From Bacteroidales bacterium (GTDB lineage Bacteria; Bacteroidota; Bacteroidia; Bacteroidales; F082), in assembly GCA_024400395.1 (NCBI GenBank), contig JAKSMW010000005.1, positions 18,776 through 82,775 of the forward strand: a stretch of DNA of 64,000 nucleotides, in the 5' to 3' direction. Position numbers and translations under genes: made by a program. Under the pieces are notes generated by a model. It did no database searches. It saw only the letters and a program-made list of their open reading frames with translations, and was not told the DNA's origin. Below, in pieces: positions 25,068 through 61,114 of this stretch. The stretch's first letter is position 1. The number at the start of each line of letters is the position of its first letter.

Positions 25068-25631
25068 ATGACAGAAGAATCACAATTTATCTTGGACGAG
25101 GCAGGTGAGACAATGGAAAGCACCATAAAACACCTTGAATCGGAATTTCAAAAAATCAGAGCGGGGAAGGCAAGCCCGATGATGCTTCAGGGCGTGAAAG
25201 TGGAATGCTACGGCGTGCTTATGCCAATCGAGCAGATCGCCAATATCGGCACACCCGACCCGCGCCAGATTATCGTCATGCCTTTCGACAAAAGCTCAAT
25301 CAGCGCAATCGACAAGGCGATTCAGGCGGCAAACCTCGGATTCAACCCGAAAAACGAAGGCGAGTTCCTGAGGATACTCGTCCCGCCGTTGACAGAGGAA
25401 CGCCGTAAGGATCTGGCGAAACGCGCCAAGACAGCCGCCGAAGAAGCCAAAGTCGGCATCAGAAACATCCGCCGTAACGCCAACGACGACGCTAAGAAAC
25501 TTGAAAAAGAAGGCGTCTCCGAAGACGAAGTGAAACAGCTTCAGGAAGAGATCCAGAAACTCACCGACAAGTTCACAAAGAAAGTCGATGACCTTTATGA
25601 ACTGAAACAGAAGGATATCCTCACTGTTTAG
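25068..25631 (+). CDS. frr: Ribosome recycling factor
   Basis: Splits the post-termination ribosome with EF-G. 187 aa, with the domain I helices (HLESEFQKIRAGKASP; LTEERRKDLAKRAKTAAEEAKVGIRNIRR) and domain II hinge. Last gene of the pyrH-frr unit; its stop codon is immediately followed by the repeat element at 25629. Confidence 0.97.
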   Translation: MTEESQFILDEAGETMESTIKHLESEFQKIRAGKASPMMLQGVKVECYGVLMPIEQIANIGTPDPRQIIVMPFDKSSISAIDKAIQAANLGFNPKNEGEFLRILVPPLTEERRKDLAKRAKTAAEEAKVGIRNIRRNANDDAKKLEKEGVSEDEVKQLQEEIQKLTDKFTKKVDDLYELKQKDILTV

Positions 25632-25817
25632 TTGAAAAGTTTGTAAAGTTGAAGGATGCTGGCGCACGAGGAAACAAATCCCTCGTGCGCCAGCTGCTTG
25701 TTTGCGCCTTGCAGCCACTTACAGTCTTTCGTGCTGCCCGCAGGGCAGTACCTCAATAACCGGGTACGCGGCACGCGTGCCCGGCAAGCATGTCACGCAC
25801 GCCCGTCATGGTACCCG
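25629..25817. repeat. Heptad repeat plus GC-rich palindrome cluster (cassette A)
   Basis: AAAGTT-type units begin in the frr stop codon. A perfect 14-bp stem GCTGGCGCACGAGG / CCTCGTGCGCCAGC (25658-25694) follows, then the palindrome CTGCCC-GCA-GGGCAG (25734-25748), AGTACCTCAATAACCGGGTAC, and several GGCACGYGTGCC / GGTACCCGG palindromes. Parts recur in the same order at 60583-60785. The first stem probably terminates pyrH-frr. Confidence 0.75.
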
Positions 25818-25870
25818 GCACGTGTGCAAAAAAATGAAAAAAAAAGTGTCCATCGTATCGAAAAAAGTTG

Positions 25871-26170
25871 TACTTTTGCCGCCAATATGAAAAATGTGCA
25901 ATCACAACATGGTAAACAACGCGTAAGTCCGTCATTCTTGACGGATGGCGTTTTTAGTTTTACCCCCCCCGTTGTGTAAGTTGCTACAAATCAATAACAT
26001 ACGATTTATTCAAAAACTCCGCCGCTGACCGCAAGTCAGGGGCGTTCGAGGTTTTCAGGGGATTTTTTTTCAAGACATTAATGACATTAATCGACTTTAA
26101 CGACTTTAAAAAACTTTACCAAAAATAAATAACAATCAAATTAACAACTTTAATTAAATCAAATCAAAAA
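25871..26170 (+). ncRNA. Promoter and structured leader of cassette A
   Basis: -7 box TACTTTTG (25871-25878). Then hairpin TCCGTCA-TTCT-TGACGGA (25928-25945), a C-tract (25963-25970), a conserved hairpin GCCGCTGACCGCAAGTCAG plus GGGC (26021-26043; one G-G mismatch), and GACATTAATGACATTAATCGAC (26075-26096), ending in an A-rich stretch before the small ORF. These elements are collinear with the leader at 60838. An unconserved 30-codon ORF (ATG 25887) is also open. No known riboswitch class was recognised by eye. Confidence 0.55.
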
Positions 26171-26317
26171 ATGAAGGAAAAAACCAACAGGAAGCGGGGC
26201 TACGAAGCCCCGAGGATTGAAGCCACGTGCTTCGCGACAGAGAACGGCTACGCCGCAAGCGCGGCGTCGACGTCAAAAGCAACAGTAAACCTCAACGTAA
26301 ACGCAGGCTCACTCTAA
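26171..26317 (+). CDS. 48-aa conserved small peptide, cassette A
   Basis: A small ORF not explained by any larger gene. Its core GYEAPRIEATCFATENGYAA is nearly the same in the 47-aa ORF at 61115; both start with Lys/Arg-rich MKxxxNRK and end in a hydrophobic or small-residue tail (NVNAGSL). Bacteroidales genomes contain many unannotated small ORFs of the form Y-x-A/S-P-x-x-E near surface lipoproteins, and this looks like one of them. There is no signal peptide. The YEAPR codons also form a GGGGCT-ACGA-AGCCCC hairpin, so the region may act as RNA as well. It lies 37 nt before the lipoprotein start and is probably co-transcribed. Function unknown. Confidence 0.7.
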   Translation: MKEKTNRKRGYEAPRIEATCFATENGYAASAASTSKATVNLNVNAGSL

Positions 26318-26354
26318 AAAATTAATCATTTAAAAAAATTAACAAAATTCAATC

Positions 26355-27803
26355 ATGAAAAAAGTATCATTATTGATTGCAGCATTCGCACTGGTGCTTG
26401 GATTTTCACAGTGCAGGAAGCCGAACTTGCCGGCATTGAACGGCGAGACACAGCATGTGGTGCTCAACGCATCATGGGACAACGGCGGCTCGAAGATCGA
26501 GCAGAACGGATCACTTTTAAAGTGGACAGAAGGTGACAAACTCACAGTGAGCGGTGGCGCGACAGGTACTCTGTCATGCACAGATGCTGCCAACGGCACC
26601 TTTGAAGGGGAAATCACTAAAGGTTCCGGAGAAGACATCACTTTCACATTCCAAAGTGAGGACTACAAAGAAAACTTCAAGGAACAGACAGGTGCTTTGG
26701 CCGACGCCGTGTCGCTCAAGTCAGCCGAGTTGGACTACAAGGCTGACGGGAATTACGGGACGGTGTCAATGGGAATGCCTCACGCCGTTCTGAAGCTTGA
26801 CCTGAGCCACTTCGCGTCTCCATCCAAAGCAGATGTGACCGTGAACATCAGTGTAAAGGCTGAAGCTGAAAGCAAGGAGGAAGATGTCATTGCATCTGTG
26901 AAATGTGCATCAGACAAATTGGGCGAAGTGTACGTGGCCGTTCCCGCAAACGGAAGCGCGGCGACTTACACATTCAGCGGCAGCGGCAAGACTGTCGAAA
27001 TGTCATGGCCGGCACTTTATGGCAGCACATTCTTCACTGCGGGCGGCAACGGCGGAGCTGCGGTGATCAAGCCGACACCGAAGTTCACCGTCGCCGACGG
27101 CAAAACGGTGGAGTTCTCGCCAGGCAACCTGTACTGGGACGGCACGGAAAGCAAGTTCAGGTTCGAGGCGAACCAGTGGGACACAAAGCCCGCTTACAGT
27201 GAAACAGAAGATGGATTTGGTACCTGGAACTCAATCCACGTGAGCCATTTCTTCTGGAGCAATACCACAGACTGGCAGGAACCAGGCATGGAGCCGTACG
27301 CAGAGGATTATTCATATAGTACGCAGGAAACGAATGACGTGTTCTTCACGGAGGCCCCTGGCTTCCAGGTGGAAGGCGAGGATGCCGGCGCATGGCGCAC
27401 ACTCAGCAGAGCCGAGTGGAACTACCTTTTGGGCTTTGACCCTGAGCAATGGGGACAGACTGACGATTACGGCAGGCCAGGCGCCAAGGCCAAGAGCGCG
27501 TGGAAGGATCTTGGCGGCGGTGTAAGCGGCTTTGTCATCCTTCCTGACGACGCGGACGCCTCGGTGATGGAAAGCATAACGGAGACGTCACACCTCGCCA
27601 CCCACGGCGCTGTCTTCCTCCCTGCCGCAGGCGACCGCTACTATGGGGGCGTGGAAAATGTCGGCTCGAAATGCAAATACTATTCGAGTACTCCCAACGA
27701 GGACGAAGCGGACCACGCGTACTACATGAGCTTCTCTTCGGACTTTGTGTACTCGAGCTACGACTATCGGAGCACCGGCTACGCCGTTCGCCTCGTGCGT
27801 TAG
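26355..27803 (+). CDS. Surface lipoprotein: fimbrillin-like N-terminus, FISUMP/C-type-lectin-like C-terminus
   Basis: 482 aa with a lipoprotein signal and lipobox ending FSQ-Cys20. Residues ~30-165 (LNASWDNGGSKIEQNG, LKWTEGDKLTV, GTLSCTDAANGTFEG, DYKADGNYGTVSM) resemble the first domain of Mfa/FimA-type fimbrillin-like proteins. The C-terminal ~235 residues (from VEFSPGNLYWDG; WRTLSRAEWNYLL; VFLPAAGDRYYG; YYSSTPN; GYAVRLVR) have the FISUMP / formylglycine-enzyme-like fold used for ligand binding. The N-terminal part is highly similar to the gene at 61322; the C-terminal part is not. The C-terminal tail matches the form of proteins diversified by retroelements. Outer-membrane surface display is inferred. 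A terminator follows. Confidence 0.8.
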   Translation: MKKVSLLIAAFALVLGFSQCRKPNLPALNGETQHVVLNASWDNGGSKIEQNGSLLKWTEGDKLTVSGGATGTLSCTDAANGTFEGEITKGSGEDITFTFQSEDYKENFKEQTGALADAVSLKSAELDYKADGNYGTVSMGMPHAVLKLDLSHFASPSKADVTVNISVKAEAESKEEDVIASVKCASDKLGEVYVAVPANGSAATYTFSGSGKTVEMSWPALYGSTFFTAGGNGGAAVIKPTPKFTVADGKTVEFSPGNLYWDGTESKFRFEANQWDTKPAYSETEDGFGTWNSIHVSHFFWSNTTDWQEPGMEPYAEDYSYSTQETNDVFFTEAPGFQVEGEDAGAWRTLSRAEWNYLLGFDPEQWGQTDDYGRPGAKAKSAWKDLGGGVSGFVILPDDADASVMESITETSHLATHGAVFLPAAGDRYYGGVENVGSKCKYYSSTPNEDEADHAYYMSFSSDFVYSSYDYRSTGYAVRLVR

Positions 27804-27868
27804 TCGCCCGTTTGCAGAACCTTACCCTTCACGCGCCGCAGAGAGACGATGCAATAACTCAAAGTCAA

Positions 27869-27904
27869 GGTCTCACTTCGTTTTCGGGGTGAGGCCTTTT
27901 TTTA
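27869..27904 (+). terminator. Terminator of cassette A
   Basis: Stem GGTCTCACTTCG / CGGGGTGAGGCC (G-T wobbles allowed) with a TTTT loop, followed by seven or more T. Confidence 0.85.
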
Positions 27905-28064: not shown

Positions 28065-29615
28065 ATGAAGTACCCCATCGGAACCCAGACGTTCAGCACC
28101 ATCATCGAAGAAGGCATGGTTTATGTCGATAAGACAGACCTCGTCTATCAACTTGCGCAGAAGCGCATCTGTTTTTTCTGCCGTCCCCGCAGATTCGGAA
28201 AATCGCTGTTAATATCAACATTGGAAAGCTATTTCAAAGGCGAGAAGGAACTGTTCAAAGGCCTGAAAATAGAGGAACTGGAAAAGGAATGGAAACAATA
28301 TCCGGTGTTCAGGATAGACTTCTCACAAGGCGGTTACGAGGTCGAAGACAATCTCAGAAAAGAACTCGATAAATATCTGACGCAGTGGGAACGCCGGCTT
28401 GGAATACAGAAGCAGATAGACAAATTGGGGTCGAGATTCTCCGACATCATTGCGGAAGCGCACCGTCAGACGGGCATGAAAGTCGCTGTCCTCATCGACG
28501 AATACGACAAGCCGTTGCTCGATGTGCTTATGGAGCCGATGGAAGCGGAGAACCGTGCCGTGCTGAAAGAGTTCTACGGCACTTTCAAATCAGCCGACGA
28601 GCATCTGCGTTTCGTGCTTCTGACGGGCGTCACCAAATTCTCGCAGGTGAGCGTTTTCAGCGGCTTCAACCAGCCGGAGGACATCAGCATGAAGAGCGAG
28701 TTCGACGCGCTTTGCGGCATCACGAAAGACGAACTCGTCAGTTATTTCGACAAGGAGATAGAAGCGATGGCCGAGAAAAGGAAGTGCCCGAAGGAGGAGA
28801 TGTACATCCGCCTCAAGAAACAATACGACGGCTACCATTTCTCCGAATGGATGACAGACATCTTCAACCCATTCAGCGTACTCAATGCGTTGAACGACAG
28901 GAAGTTGGATGACTATTGGTTTGTGTCGGGCACACCCACTTACCTCATGCGGCTGCTCGACCGCGGGAAGACCAACATGCAGGAGATAGTGGGCAGGCAA
29001 TATGAGAAAAACTATTTCATGGACTACAAGGCCGACACCGAAGACCCTTTGGCGATGATATACCAGAGCGGCTATCTCACGATAAAAGGCTATGATGAAA
29101 CGAGGGGTCAATACAAACTCGACTTCCCGAACGACGAGGTTAAGAACGGTTTCGTCACGCTTCTCGCGAACAACTACTGCGGTCGCAGGAATGACCCGAA
29201 AAATCTCGTCCTCGACATCAACGACATGCTCAGGCAATGCCGCCTCGACGACATGCGCGACGCACTTTCCGGTTTCTTCGCCTCAATTCCGTACAACGCA
29301 TACTATCAGGAACGCGCTTGGAGCTACGAGAGCCATTATCACTACACATTCTATCTGATATTCAGGCTGCTGTCGTGTTACACTACTTTTACAGAGAAAG
29401 AAAATTCCCGCGGAAGAGCCGACATGATTGTCGAAACCACCGACTACGTTTACATCTTCGAGTTCAAGCTTGACGGCACCGCCGCCGAAGCCCTCAAACA
29501 AATCGAAGACAAAGGCTACGCCGAGCCTTACGCCGCGGATTCGAGAAAATTGTTTAAGTTTGGAGTGGCGTTCTCGAGCGAGAAAAAGAATATCGTTGAG
29601 TGGGAGGTGGTTTAA
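28065..29615 (+). CDS. AAA-ATPase-like / PD-(D/E)XK (DUF1703-type) protein
   Basis: 516 aa, member of a large Bacteroidales family with an AAA-ATPase-like domain and a C-terminal nuclease-like domain. The N-terminus begins with the family hallmark YPIGTQTFSTIIEEGMVYVDKT; a P-loop variant RPRRFGKSLL (~40-49) and Walker B VLIDEYDKP (~143) follow. The C-terminus has GRADMIVETTDYVYIFEFKLDG (split by eye into D...ExK; ~450-471), the PD-(D/E)XK core. The biological role is unknown; proposals range from selfish element to defence. It sits alone between two repeat elements and uses a promoter carried by the repeat. Unrelated in sequence to the ATPase at 7321 but similar in plan. Confidence 0.88.
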   Translation: MKYPIGTQTFSTIIEEGMVYVDKTDLVYQLAQKRICFFCRPRRFGKSLLISTLESYFKGEKELFKGLKIEELEKEWKQYPVFRIDFSQGGYEVEDNLRKELDKYLTQWERRLGIQKQIDKLGSRFSDIIAEAHRQTGMKVAVLIDEYDKPLLDVLMEPMEAENRAVLKEFYGTFKSADEHLRFVLLTGVTKFSQVSVFSGFNQPEDISMKSEFDALCGITKDELVSYFDKEIEAMAEKRKCPKEEMYIRLKKQYDGYHFSEWMTDIFNPFSVLNALNDRKLDDYWFVSGTPTYLMRLLDRGKTNMQEIVGRQYEKNYFMDYKADTEDPLAMIYQSGYLTIKGYDETRGQYKLDFPNDEVKNGFVTLLANNYCGRRNDPKNLVLDINDMLRQCRLDDMRDALSGFFASIPYNAYYQERAWSYESHYHYTFYLIFRLLSCYTTFTEKENSRGRADMIVETTDYVYIFEFKLDGTAAEALKQIEDKGYAEPYAADSRKLFKFGVAFSSEKKNIVEWEVV

Positions 29616-60452: not shown

Positions 60453-60527
60453 GGTGCCGTAGTTCAGTTTGGTTAGAATGCCTGCCTGTCACGCAGGAGG
60501 TCGACGGTTCGAGCCCGTTCGGCACCG
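60453..60527 (+). tRNA. tRNA-Asp (anticodon GTC)
   Basis: 75 nt with a complete cloverleaf: acceptor GGTGCCG / CGGCACC, anticodon stem CCTGC / GCAGG enclosing loop CTGTCAC (anticodon GTC at 60488-60490), T-arm GACGG-TTCGAGC-CCGTT, discriminator G. The 3' CCA is not encoded. Confidence 0.97.
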
Positions 60528-60532
60528 CAAAA

Positions 60533-60566
60533 GAAACTCACTCGAAAGAGTGGGTTTCTTTTTTTT
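60533..60566 (+). terminator. Terminator after tRNA-Asp
   Basis: Stem GAAACTCACTC / GAGTGGGTTTC with GAAA tetraloop and eight T. Confidence 0.93.
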
Positions 60567-60582
60567 ATCAGTGTTGCATTTA

Positions 60583-60785
60583 GTTAGTAAAGTTACAAAG
60601 TTTGTAAAGTTATAAAGTTGAAAGTGGCTGGCGCACAAGAGTTTTCTTCCTTATGCGCCAGCTTTCTGTTTGTGCGCCAGCTGCCCGCAGGGCAGTACCT
60701 TAATAACCGAGTACACGGCACGTGTGCCCGTGCATACACATCACGTGTGCCCTGAGCCGCCCGGCATGATGCCCGTCACGTGTTT
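60583..60785. repeat. Heptad repeat plus GC-rich palindrome cluster (cassette B)
   Basis: AAAGTTA/AAAGTTT units (60583-60625), hairpin GCTGGCGCACAAG (60627-60639) / CTTATGCGCCAGC (60650-60662), a third TGCGCCAGC (60673-60681), palindrome CTGCCC-GCA-GGGCAG (60681-60695), AGTACCTTAATAACCGAGTAC, then GGCACGTGTGCC-type palindromes. Collinear with 25629-25817. With the tRNA just upstream, this could mark an insertion point, but no attachment-site duplication was found. Confidence 0.75.
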
Positions 60786-60837: not shown

Positions 60838-61114
60838 TAATTCTGCCGCCAATATGAAAAAGGCGCATATACAATATCAAGAATAAGGTTGCTGTTTGCC
60901 GAATTTGGCAAATAGGGATATTGTGATTACCCCCTCCGTTGCCAATTTGCTGTAAATCAACAATTCATCATTTACTTAAAAATTCTGCCGCTGACCGCAA
61001 GTCAGGGGCTTTCGGCGTTTCCGATGGTTTCAGAGTTTCAAGGAATTGCTTTCCGGGACATTAATGACATTAATCGACACTAACGACATTAAATAATTTC
61101 AAAAAATTAAAAAA
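60838..61114 (+). ncRNA. Promoter and structured leader of cassette B
   Basis: -7 box TAATTCTG (60838-60845; one mismatch from TAnnTTTG). Then hairpin TTTGCC-GAATTT-GGCAAA (60895-60912), C-tract (60930-60934), the conserved hairpin GCCGCTGACCGCAAGTCAG plus GGGC (60987-61009), and GACATTAATGACATTAATCGAC (61057-61078). The order and the spacing from the -7 box match cassette A. The first hairpin differs completely in sequence from cassette A but sits at the same place. A 10-codon ORF follows the -7 box. Confidence 0.55.

Follow-up and report, generated by a model that had tools for sequence, protein, structure and literature searches.

What is the unit that occurs twice in this stretch of DNA, each time carrying a lipoprotein gene with a different end? 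The stretch (called the window below) is 64,000 nucleotides long and comes from contig JAKSMW010000005.1 of a Bacteroidales bacterium. In both copies an inverted repeat, a promoter, a leader, a small open reading frame (ORF) and a lipoprotein gene follow each other in the same order, as a first-pass annotation of the sequence had described and as we could confirm at both loci (Table 1). The same annotation held that the 5' parts and the lipoprotein N-terminus are conserved and the C-termini different, and this is what we find: with 972 bases of copy 1 as the query, copy 2 is found at 68% identity (query positions 105-972, E 1e-100), and the N-termini of the two lipoproteins are 61% identical over query positions 1-244.

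From sequence comparison we consider it likely, taking all parts together, that the two copies belong to a dispersed family of lipoprotein operons with tips rewritten by a diversity-generating retroelement (DGR) and with recombining copies. The members of this family share a promoter, a structured leader, a small ORF and a lipoprotein start; the lipoprotein would combine a stalk or anchor of the fimbrillin type with a tip that resembles C-type lectins (FISUMP/Lcl_C). Adenine-derived positions in several dispersed targets would have been rewritten in trans by a DGR reverse transcriptase (RT), and recombination, its breakpoint apparently lying in the small-ORF core or close to it, would reassort leaders, anchors and tips among the copies. 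Such a unit probably displays changing binding surfaces, and we infer that the lipoprotein works like known DGR-diversified surface adhesins.

The assembly that contains the window (the own genome; 2.12 Mb in 61 contigs, 83% complete) was compared with other genomes of the genus and of the order. In the following, C45a stands for window copy 1, other names in C denote copies or C-termini by their contig in the own genome, and L and G denote loci and genomes, respectively.

Hypervariable ends of the lipoproteins

The hypervariable stretch takes up the final ~55 codons of the lipoprotein gene, in copy 1 as in several of its paralogues. When C45a is compared with C28, about 300 nt are 98-100% identical, after which the first and second bases of neighbouring codons differ and the third base is mostly kept. 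Counted by codon position (1/2/3), there are 19/21/8 differences in the last 60 codons and 4/2/1 in the preceding 110. A bias in the last 60 codons that is absent upstream is seen for C9 and C4_2 (18/13/2 versus 30/34/36), for C9 and C60c (15/13/7 versus 33/31/46) and for C28 and C2a (20/16/7 versus 30/25/40), and is weaker for C6 (C9-C6, 24/15/14). For eight within-group pairs, selected from 36, a Fisher test gave p values from 4e-4 to 0.036, uncorrected. Altogether, 19 C-termini of the own genome were inspected and ten of them could be aligned, five of which follow a small ORF (C45a, C14, C9, C4 and C6) and two of which are cut by contig ends (C28 and C2a).

Could such a pattern arise by ordinary exchange? 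The alternative is an ordinary paralogous lipoprotein family, spread by duplication and gene conversion, in which no DGR takes part and the codons at the C-terminus vary through diversifying selection or through exchange among paralogues. Because exchange would bring third-position differences, as the upstream regions show, the conservation of the third base within groups, next to changes of the first and second bases in neighbouring codons, disfavours it. The variable columns also coincide with the template Asn columns of related DGRs: all 19 columns in which templates of genus relatives have Asn vary in the own-genome repeats, compared to 19 of 41 other columns in group 2 (p 1.7e-5) and 18 of 44 in group 1 (p 2.9e-6). 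In smaller subsets the figures for Asn and other columns are 17/19 versus 12/44 and 16/20 versus 11/42. On these grounds we think that exchange without a DGR is an unlikely explanation, although several observations taken up below would suit it.

Two RT matches were found in the own genome, one in a prophage-like region of contig C4 and one a fragment at the end of contig C5. The C5 fragment has matches in 20 of the 99 genus genomes at E<=0.001 (the own genome included, and many of them weak). We fetched seven related RT regions, and six of these (L243-L248, from five genomes) hold pairs of template and variable repeats, with 0-2 mismatches at non-A and 11-29 at A positions and with the same kind of C-terminal domain; the seventh, L242 from genome G450, has an RT fragment and no such pair. 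The variable repeats of the related DGRs end in motifs of the VRPV or VRLV family, and the one at L247 lies on a lipoprotein-like relative of the window's protein. In the same-genus genome G349 (L243, 3247-5352 and 10686-12248), one template fits two variable repeats, whose proteins have N-termini that look Ser/Thr kinase-like by eye. The other RT, the one on C4, adjoins a tail-fibre-like ORF and was treated as a separate system. This ORF has 1149 aa and lies beside the RT within the prophage-like region (L194, 3287-8505); the two are perhaps a separate phage DGR.

Since the codon-phase test, the template-Asn test and the complete DGRs of the same genus agree, we regard a DGR history of the copy 1-type C-terminus as probable. 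This concerns the history of the C-terminus and not present DGR activity in the organism. The earlier suggestion that C-terminal modules vary behind a constant anchor thus stands as far as the constant 5' parts are concerned, and needs to be reworded for the C-termini, which in several copies look like the product of DGR hypermutation and recombination.

Copies, exchange and the limits of the family

A search with the 48-aa protein of copy 1 returned 12 small-ORF matches in the own genome, all of them with open frames, and in 12 of 12 a lipoprotein start follows just 3', within about 100 nt (in C35, a contig end cuts the lipoprotein after ~22 codons). The lipoprotein N-terminus has 18 matches, two of them merely 19-21 aa long and situated at contig ends. 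The copies sit among differing genes that look housekeeping-like by eye. With 12 dispersed copies, the cassette is not the result of one recent local duplication, an outcome which the first-pass annotation had named as contrary to its proposal.

The copies are mosaics. C45a and C35 are identical in the leader, 98% identical in the small-ORF core and 65% in its tail. C45a and C56, on the other hand, share 73% in the leader and 100% in the tail and the next 150 nt; the identity continues for 750 nt into the lipoprotein gene and then breaks off sharply. Between C45b and C60, identity is 100% in the core, 98% in the tail and 77-78% in the leader and downstream. Such mosaics would most simply be read as the outcome of recombination, with the point of exchange in the small-ORF core or close to it. 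In two species, the lipoproteins at L154 (G471) and L157 (G413) agree at 107 of 110 aligned residues upstream and at only 34 of 63 in the C-terminal part.

Are the copies mobile? A mobile element similar to a transposon or a miniature inverted-repeat transposable element, inserting between genes and bounded by the palindromes, would account for copies that lie between unrelated genes, for palindromic stretches that recur in the genome and for an AAA-ATPase-like gene that often follows. However, the palindromic stretches upstream of the cassette recur in the own genome also without it, for example upstream of AAA-ATPase-like genes, so that they are not specific to the cassette. Moreover, the three genes upstream of one copy are the same in two species (identical residues 186/190, 155/168 and 264/269, or 92-98%), as vertical inheritance predicts. 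Judging by these neighbours and repeats (no search was aimed at a transposase or target-site duplication), we think a mobile element very improbable. The notion of a constant promoter, leader, small ORF and lipoprotein anchor before variable C-terminal parts is borne out by the many copies; for mobility there is weak support.

To see how far the small ORF extends beyond the own genome, we used samples of 393 genomes for each search of the order and 99 genomes for the genus. With a narrow model, made from the 12 own copies, 3 of 393 genomes match at E<=0.001, the own genome counted. A broad model of 15 rows includes sequences from G467, G406, G295 and G208 and is therefore partly circular; it matches 27 of 393 genomes at E<=0.05 and, within the genus, 30 of 99 at E<=0.01 (again counting the own genome). 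A second genome of the genus, G467, has 16 small-ORF matches.

Within the genus, the small ORF is usually followed by a lipoprotein. Among the 28 genus loci that were read (L137-L164, with L137 and L138 from model genomes), a script found a lipobox-bearing protein at most 400 nt downstream in 26 (in L161 only at +332); of the remaining two, L146 has one at +167 on another reading and L139 has none. All of 20 further loci, picked by hand (15 of the 16 from G467, 3 from G406 and 2 from G410; L165 duplicates L137), have such a protein as well. Among the loci from the order search (L109-L136), it is present in 13 of 28, of which one belongs to the own genus and 12 are spread over seven other families; the other 15 comprise 7 small ORFs without a lipobox protein and 8 long ORFs, unresolved or unread. 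As a background, of 184 genes with 200 aa or more, some cassette lipoproteins included, 28 fit the lipobox pattern. The gap between small ORF and lipoprotein has a median of 32 nt and ranges from -26 to 332 (59 loci).

In the other direction the result is different. Relatives of the lipoprotein N-terminus were collected from a sample of 60 genomes, and the best locus per genus genome was kept, which gave 29 loci. Of these, L073 alone is preceded by a member of this small-ORF family. The first-pass annotation would have been contradicted by lipoprotein homologues that consistently lack the small ORF, and this turned out half true: 28 of 29 lack it, yet 26 of 28 small ORFs precede a lipoprotein. 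The link between small ORF and lipoprotein is one-sided. In front of most of the related genus lipoproteins (L074-L101) stands another small protein, whose tail is PLGSGLLIL..AGAGYA-like; a loose pattern finds it at 21 of 29 loci, and sometimes the two proteins are fused.

Apart from this missing small ORF, a number of observations count against a family of DGR-rewritten lipoprotein operons. There is no third-base bias between groups or with C2b (C45a-C9, 28/20/27; C45a-C2b, 22/20/34), and the nine C-termini that could not be aligned show no codon signature by eye (window copy 2, C15a, C15b, C16, C17, C60a, C60b, C32a and C32b). Among the alignable ones, C60c and C37 belong to lipoproteins of another N-terminal type and C2b to a protein without a lipoprotein start, so that DGR targeting and the cassette are separable. 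The RT on C5 is truncated by the contig end, and its closest relative, in G450 (87%), is a fragment as well. A search of the own genome with one inferred 72-nt query, representing group 2 only, revealed no template: the best match was a variable repeat (88%), and otherwise variable repeats and short matches were returned. An adenine-tolerant template scan near the two RT contigs gave nothing either. The lipoprotein frames are broken in C60 (TAA), C23 (TGA) and C4 (two ORFs), and because of these interruptions some copies may be decaying. Finally, G467 has no match to the own RT despite its 16 small-ORF matches, and in 6 of 6 of its pairs that pass a 40% identity filter it is position 3 that varies most; with neither an RT match nor a codon signature, it was dropped as a second DGR example.

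The missing template, the three interrupted frames and the variation in G467 without an RT match are also what exchange between paralogues would lead one to expect, as are the long stretches in which copies are 100% identical before they diverge sharply, and the contigs that break off within a copy (C35, C28 and others).

Leader RNA and small protein

The leader and the small ORF are the less known part of the cassette. We take TACTTTTG in copy 1 to be a -7 box of the Bacteroidota type. All 12 own copies share this box and the leader, which measures 258-419 nt from the box; all but C9 (11 of 12) also have a hairpin around CTGACCGCAAGTCAG. Tandem repeats of the 9-base TTTCAGAGG type vary in number among leaders, for example in L042 and L047; the longest leader, with 419 nt, is that of C6. 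A short upstream ORF at the start of the leader was considered and rejected: it is open in several copies and broken by stop or start changes in C45b, C23, C6 and C17.

Is the leader structured? The copy 1 leader folds with z -2.2, and 5 of 200 shuffles fold equally well. We aligned 13 leaders, 11 from the own genome and 2 from G467, which make up 12 distinct rows (C35, with a leader identical to that of C45a, was excluded). In these 12 rows, 91.7% of the cells of an 8-bp hairpin are paired and 5 pairs have changed on both sides. While 14 of 500 shuffles reach 5 such pairs, none of 500 reaches the covariation score, and slid versions pair at 27-51%. The type-A hairpin was found at 3 of 15 G467 loci (2 of the 9 with the full 450 nt upstream; five loci have less than 130 nt) and at none of 61 others, and thus marks only part of the family.

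In relatives, the 300-nt stretches upstream of the small ORF fold at z -3.0 to -7.1 in 10 of 12 cases (60 shuffles each), most strongly in L102, L073, L142, L155 and L184 (z -6.1 to -7.1); L146 (z 0.0) and L153 (z 0.7) show no such tendency. Five leaders from four genus genomes (L142, L155, L156, L161 and L184), which we call type B, form a 47-pair rod with strong covariation, 91.1% of cells being paired and 19 pairs double-changed; a slid control pairs at 41-45%, and the five sequences compared here are also those that yielded the structure. A covariance model of type B recovered the five loci from which it was built (two of them on the reverse strand as well) and, weakly, L073 (E 0.066) and L102 (E 0.41). 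It found nothing in the window, whose leader is of a type differing from type B. In Rfam 15 no match to the leader was found; the only match in the window at gathering score is a tRNA, and relaxed thresholds add sub-gathering matches only. Three of the five type-B loci (L142, L155 and L156), compared with Rfam, have no match at the rod.

The small ORF encodes 42-49 aa across the copies, with a nearly invariant core (GYEAPRIEA..F.TE.GYAAS) and a tail that varies. Over the 21 codons of the core, the ratio of nonsynonymous to synonymous change (pN/pS) is 0.28. We also looked at a filtered set of 51 loci from outside G467 and 14 from G467, in which an ORF of 30-75 aa is followed by a downstream ORF (loci without one and two duplicates are omitted). 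Here, 36 of the 51 have a W within the last five residues, and all 14 G467 members end in L. Neither Pfam nor NCBIfam has a family that scores above cut-off with the two window small ORFs or with nine relatives. A literature search, with subscription papers, bioRxiv and supplements largely outside its coverage, returned no paper on the small ORF or the leader.

Our guess, on which we would not rely, is that the small ORF is translated and that its product acts in the cytoplasm on the expression or early handling of the lipoprotein; we base it on the amino-acid conservation, the tight position and the lack of a visible signal peptide. It is also possible, if somewhat doubtful, that the ORF serves as a leader peptide or translational coupler only and that its product has no function after translation. 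The constant place just before the lipoprotein, the variable tail and the related lipoproteins that manage without the small ORF would fit this. On the other hand, the amino-acid core is kept amid synonymous change, it can be made out in seven further families of the order, and most relatives keep the W near the end.

A wider proposal, which we make tentatively, is that a structured leader and a cytoplasmic peptide of ~50 residues form an expression module that controls or assists the production of modular surface lipoproteins across several Bacteroidales families. In this lineage it would have come to stand before DGR-hypermutated adhesins, and recombination in the core would pair tips, anchors and leaders anew. 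Gut Bacteroidales diversify their surface adhesins, and a conserved leader RNA and small protein before adhesin genes would offer a concrete handle on the control of adhesin display. The cassette may also be a sign of a small-protein family and of structured leader RNAs that are missing from the libraries searched.

Lipoprotein domains, known systems and the window

The window lipoprotein carries the signal MKKVSLLIAAFALVLGFSQC, read from the sequence by eye. Similarly, the promoter consensus, the fimbrillin motif and the missing signal peptide of the small ORF were judged by eye, with no predictor. The link to fimbrillins comes from profile comparisons, in which the genus set A6 matches the order set A7 at 99.8% over 215 columns, and the window set A5 matches A7 at 97.6% over 173 and A6 at 97.7% over 87 columns; these scores include signal peptides, which raise them. 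In set A7, two members match Mfa_like_1, one of them above and the other below cut-off; the same family is touched by 1 of 12 members of A6 (E 0.062). To be set against a fimbrillin-like stalk are a Pfam scan in which the window lipoproteins have no match to Mfa_like_1 (PF13149) and the absence of any PDB match to the window protein, A3 or A6 in sequence searches. A7 has one weak PDB match, over its first 44 positions. Among 20 scanned lipoproteins downstream of small ORFs, 16 have no Pfam domain above cut-off; the other four have BspA-type leucine-rich repeats (L109 and L136), Mfa_like_1 (L132) and Lcl_C (L155).

With fimbrillin-like proteins, the window lipoproteins have in common the lipoprotein N-domain, linked by profile through set A7, and differ in lacking the PF13149 match. 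With FISUMP (TIGR02145) and Lcl_C (PF07603) proteins, they share a C-terminal YYWSS ... VRPVR pattern, but window lipoprotein 1 scores 20.1 with Lcl_C (cut-off 34.9) and neither of the two matches TIGR02145. The Lcl_C/FISUMP matches of the own-genome proteins are all below cut-off.

Bacteroides DGRs reportedly diversify the tip pilins of type V pili. Compared with these, the present case has several dispersed targets, some of which have the shared leader and small ORF in front; among the neighbours of the copies, viewed by eye, no pilus gene cluster was noticed, and no template was found in the own assembly. PMC12632263 describes DGRs as prevalent in Bacteroides and as diversifying tip pilins, for which it cites Macadangdang et al. 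2024. In Treponema denticola there are up to seven dispersed DGR target genes, many of them for lipoproteins, according to PMC4891356. This TvpA-type DGR resembles the present case in its dispersed variable-repeat genes, many encoding lipoproteins, and has a C-type-lectin-fold domain. It differs in the phylum and the N-terminal domain, and the conserved leader with its small ORF and the prominent recombination between copies are found here.

Table 1. Positions of the cassette parts and of an adjoining gene, in window coordinates
Feature	Position	Strand	Remark
Copy 1 inverted repeat, intergenic	25658..25694	.	14-nt arms, 100% match
Copy 1 -7 box TACTTTTG	25871..25878	+	from sequence and alignment of copies
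Copy 1 leader	~25888..26170	+	predicted 5' stem-loop at ~25895-25988
Copy 1 leader hairpin GCCGCTGACCGCAAGTCAGGGGC	26021..26043	+	with small changes in 11/12 copies
Copy 1 small ORF, 48 aa	26171..26317	+	core GYEAPRIEA..F.TE.GYAAS, variable tail ending in GSL
Copy 1 lipoprotein, 482 aa	26355..27803	+	N-domain linked by profile to fimbrillin-like sets; Lcl_C-like C-terminus below cut-off
Putative DGR variable repeat, 3' end of copy 1 lipoprotein	27630..27800	+	codon pattern
AAA-ATPase_like/PDDEXK_9 gene	28065..29615	+	directly 3' of copy 1; recurrent neighbour, membership of the unit not shown
Copy 2 inverted repeat, intergenic	60627..60662	.	further arm reaching 60681
Copy 2 -7-like box TAATTCTG	60838..60845	+	from sequence and alignment of copies
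Copy 2 leader	~60853..61114	+	hairpin at 60987-61009
Copy 2 small ORF, 47 aa	61115..61258	+	match to copy 1 small ORF
Copy 2 lipoprotein, 645 aa	61322..63259	+	C-terminus without codon signature

Two further observations concern the surroundings of the cassettes. A tRNA-Asp gene lies ~100 nt upstream of the copy 2 inverted repeat (window 60453-60627). An AAA-ATPase-like gene directly downstream of the lipoprotein is seen in copy 1, C17, C6, C9, C60 (twice) and C2; these genes are found at L046, L047, L048, L049, L053 and L196, and the assignment by Pfam applies to the window only.

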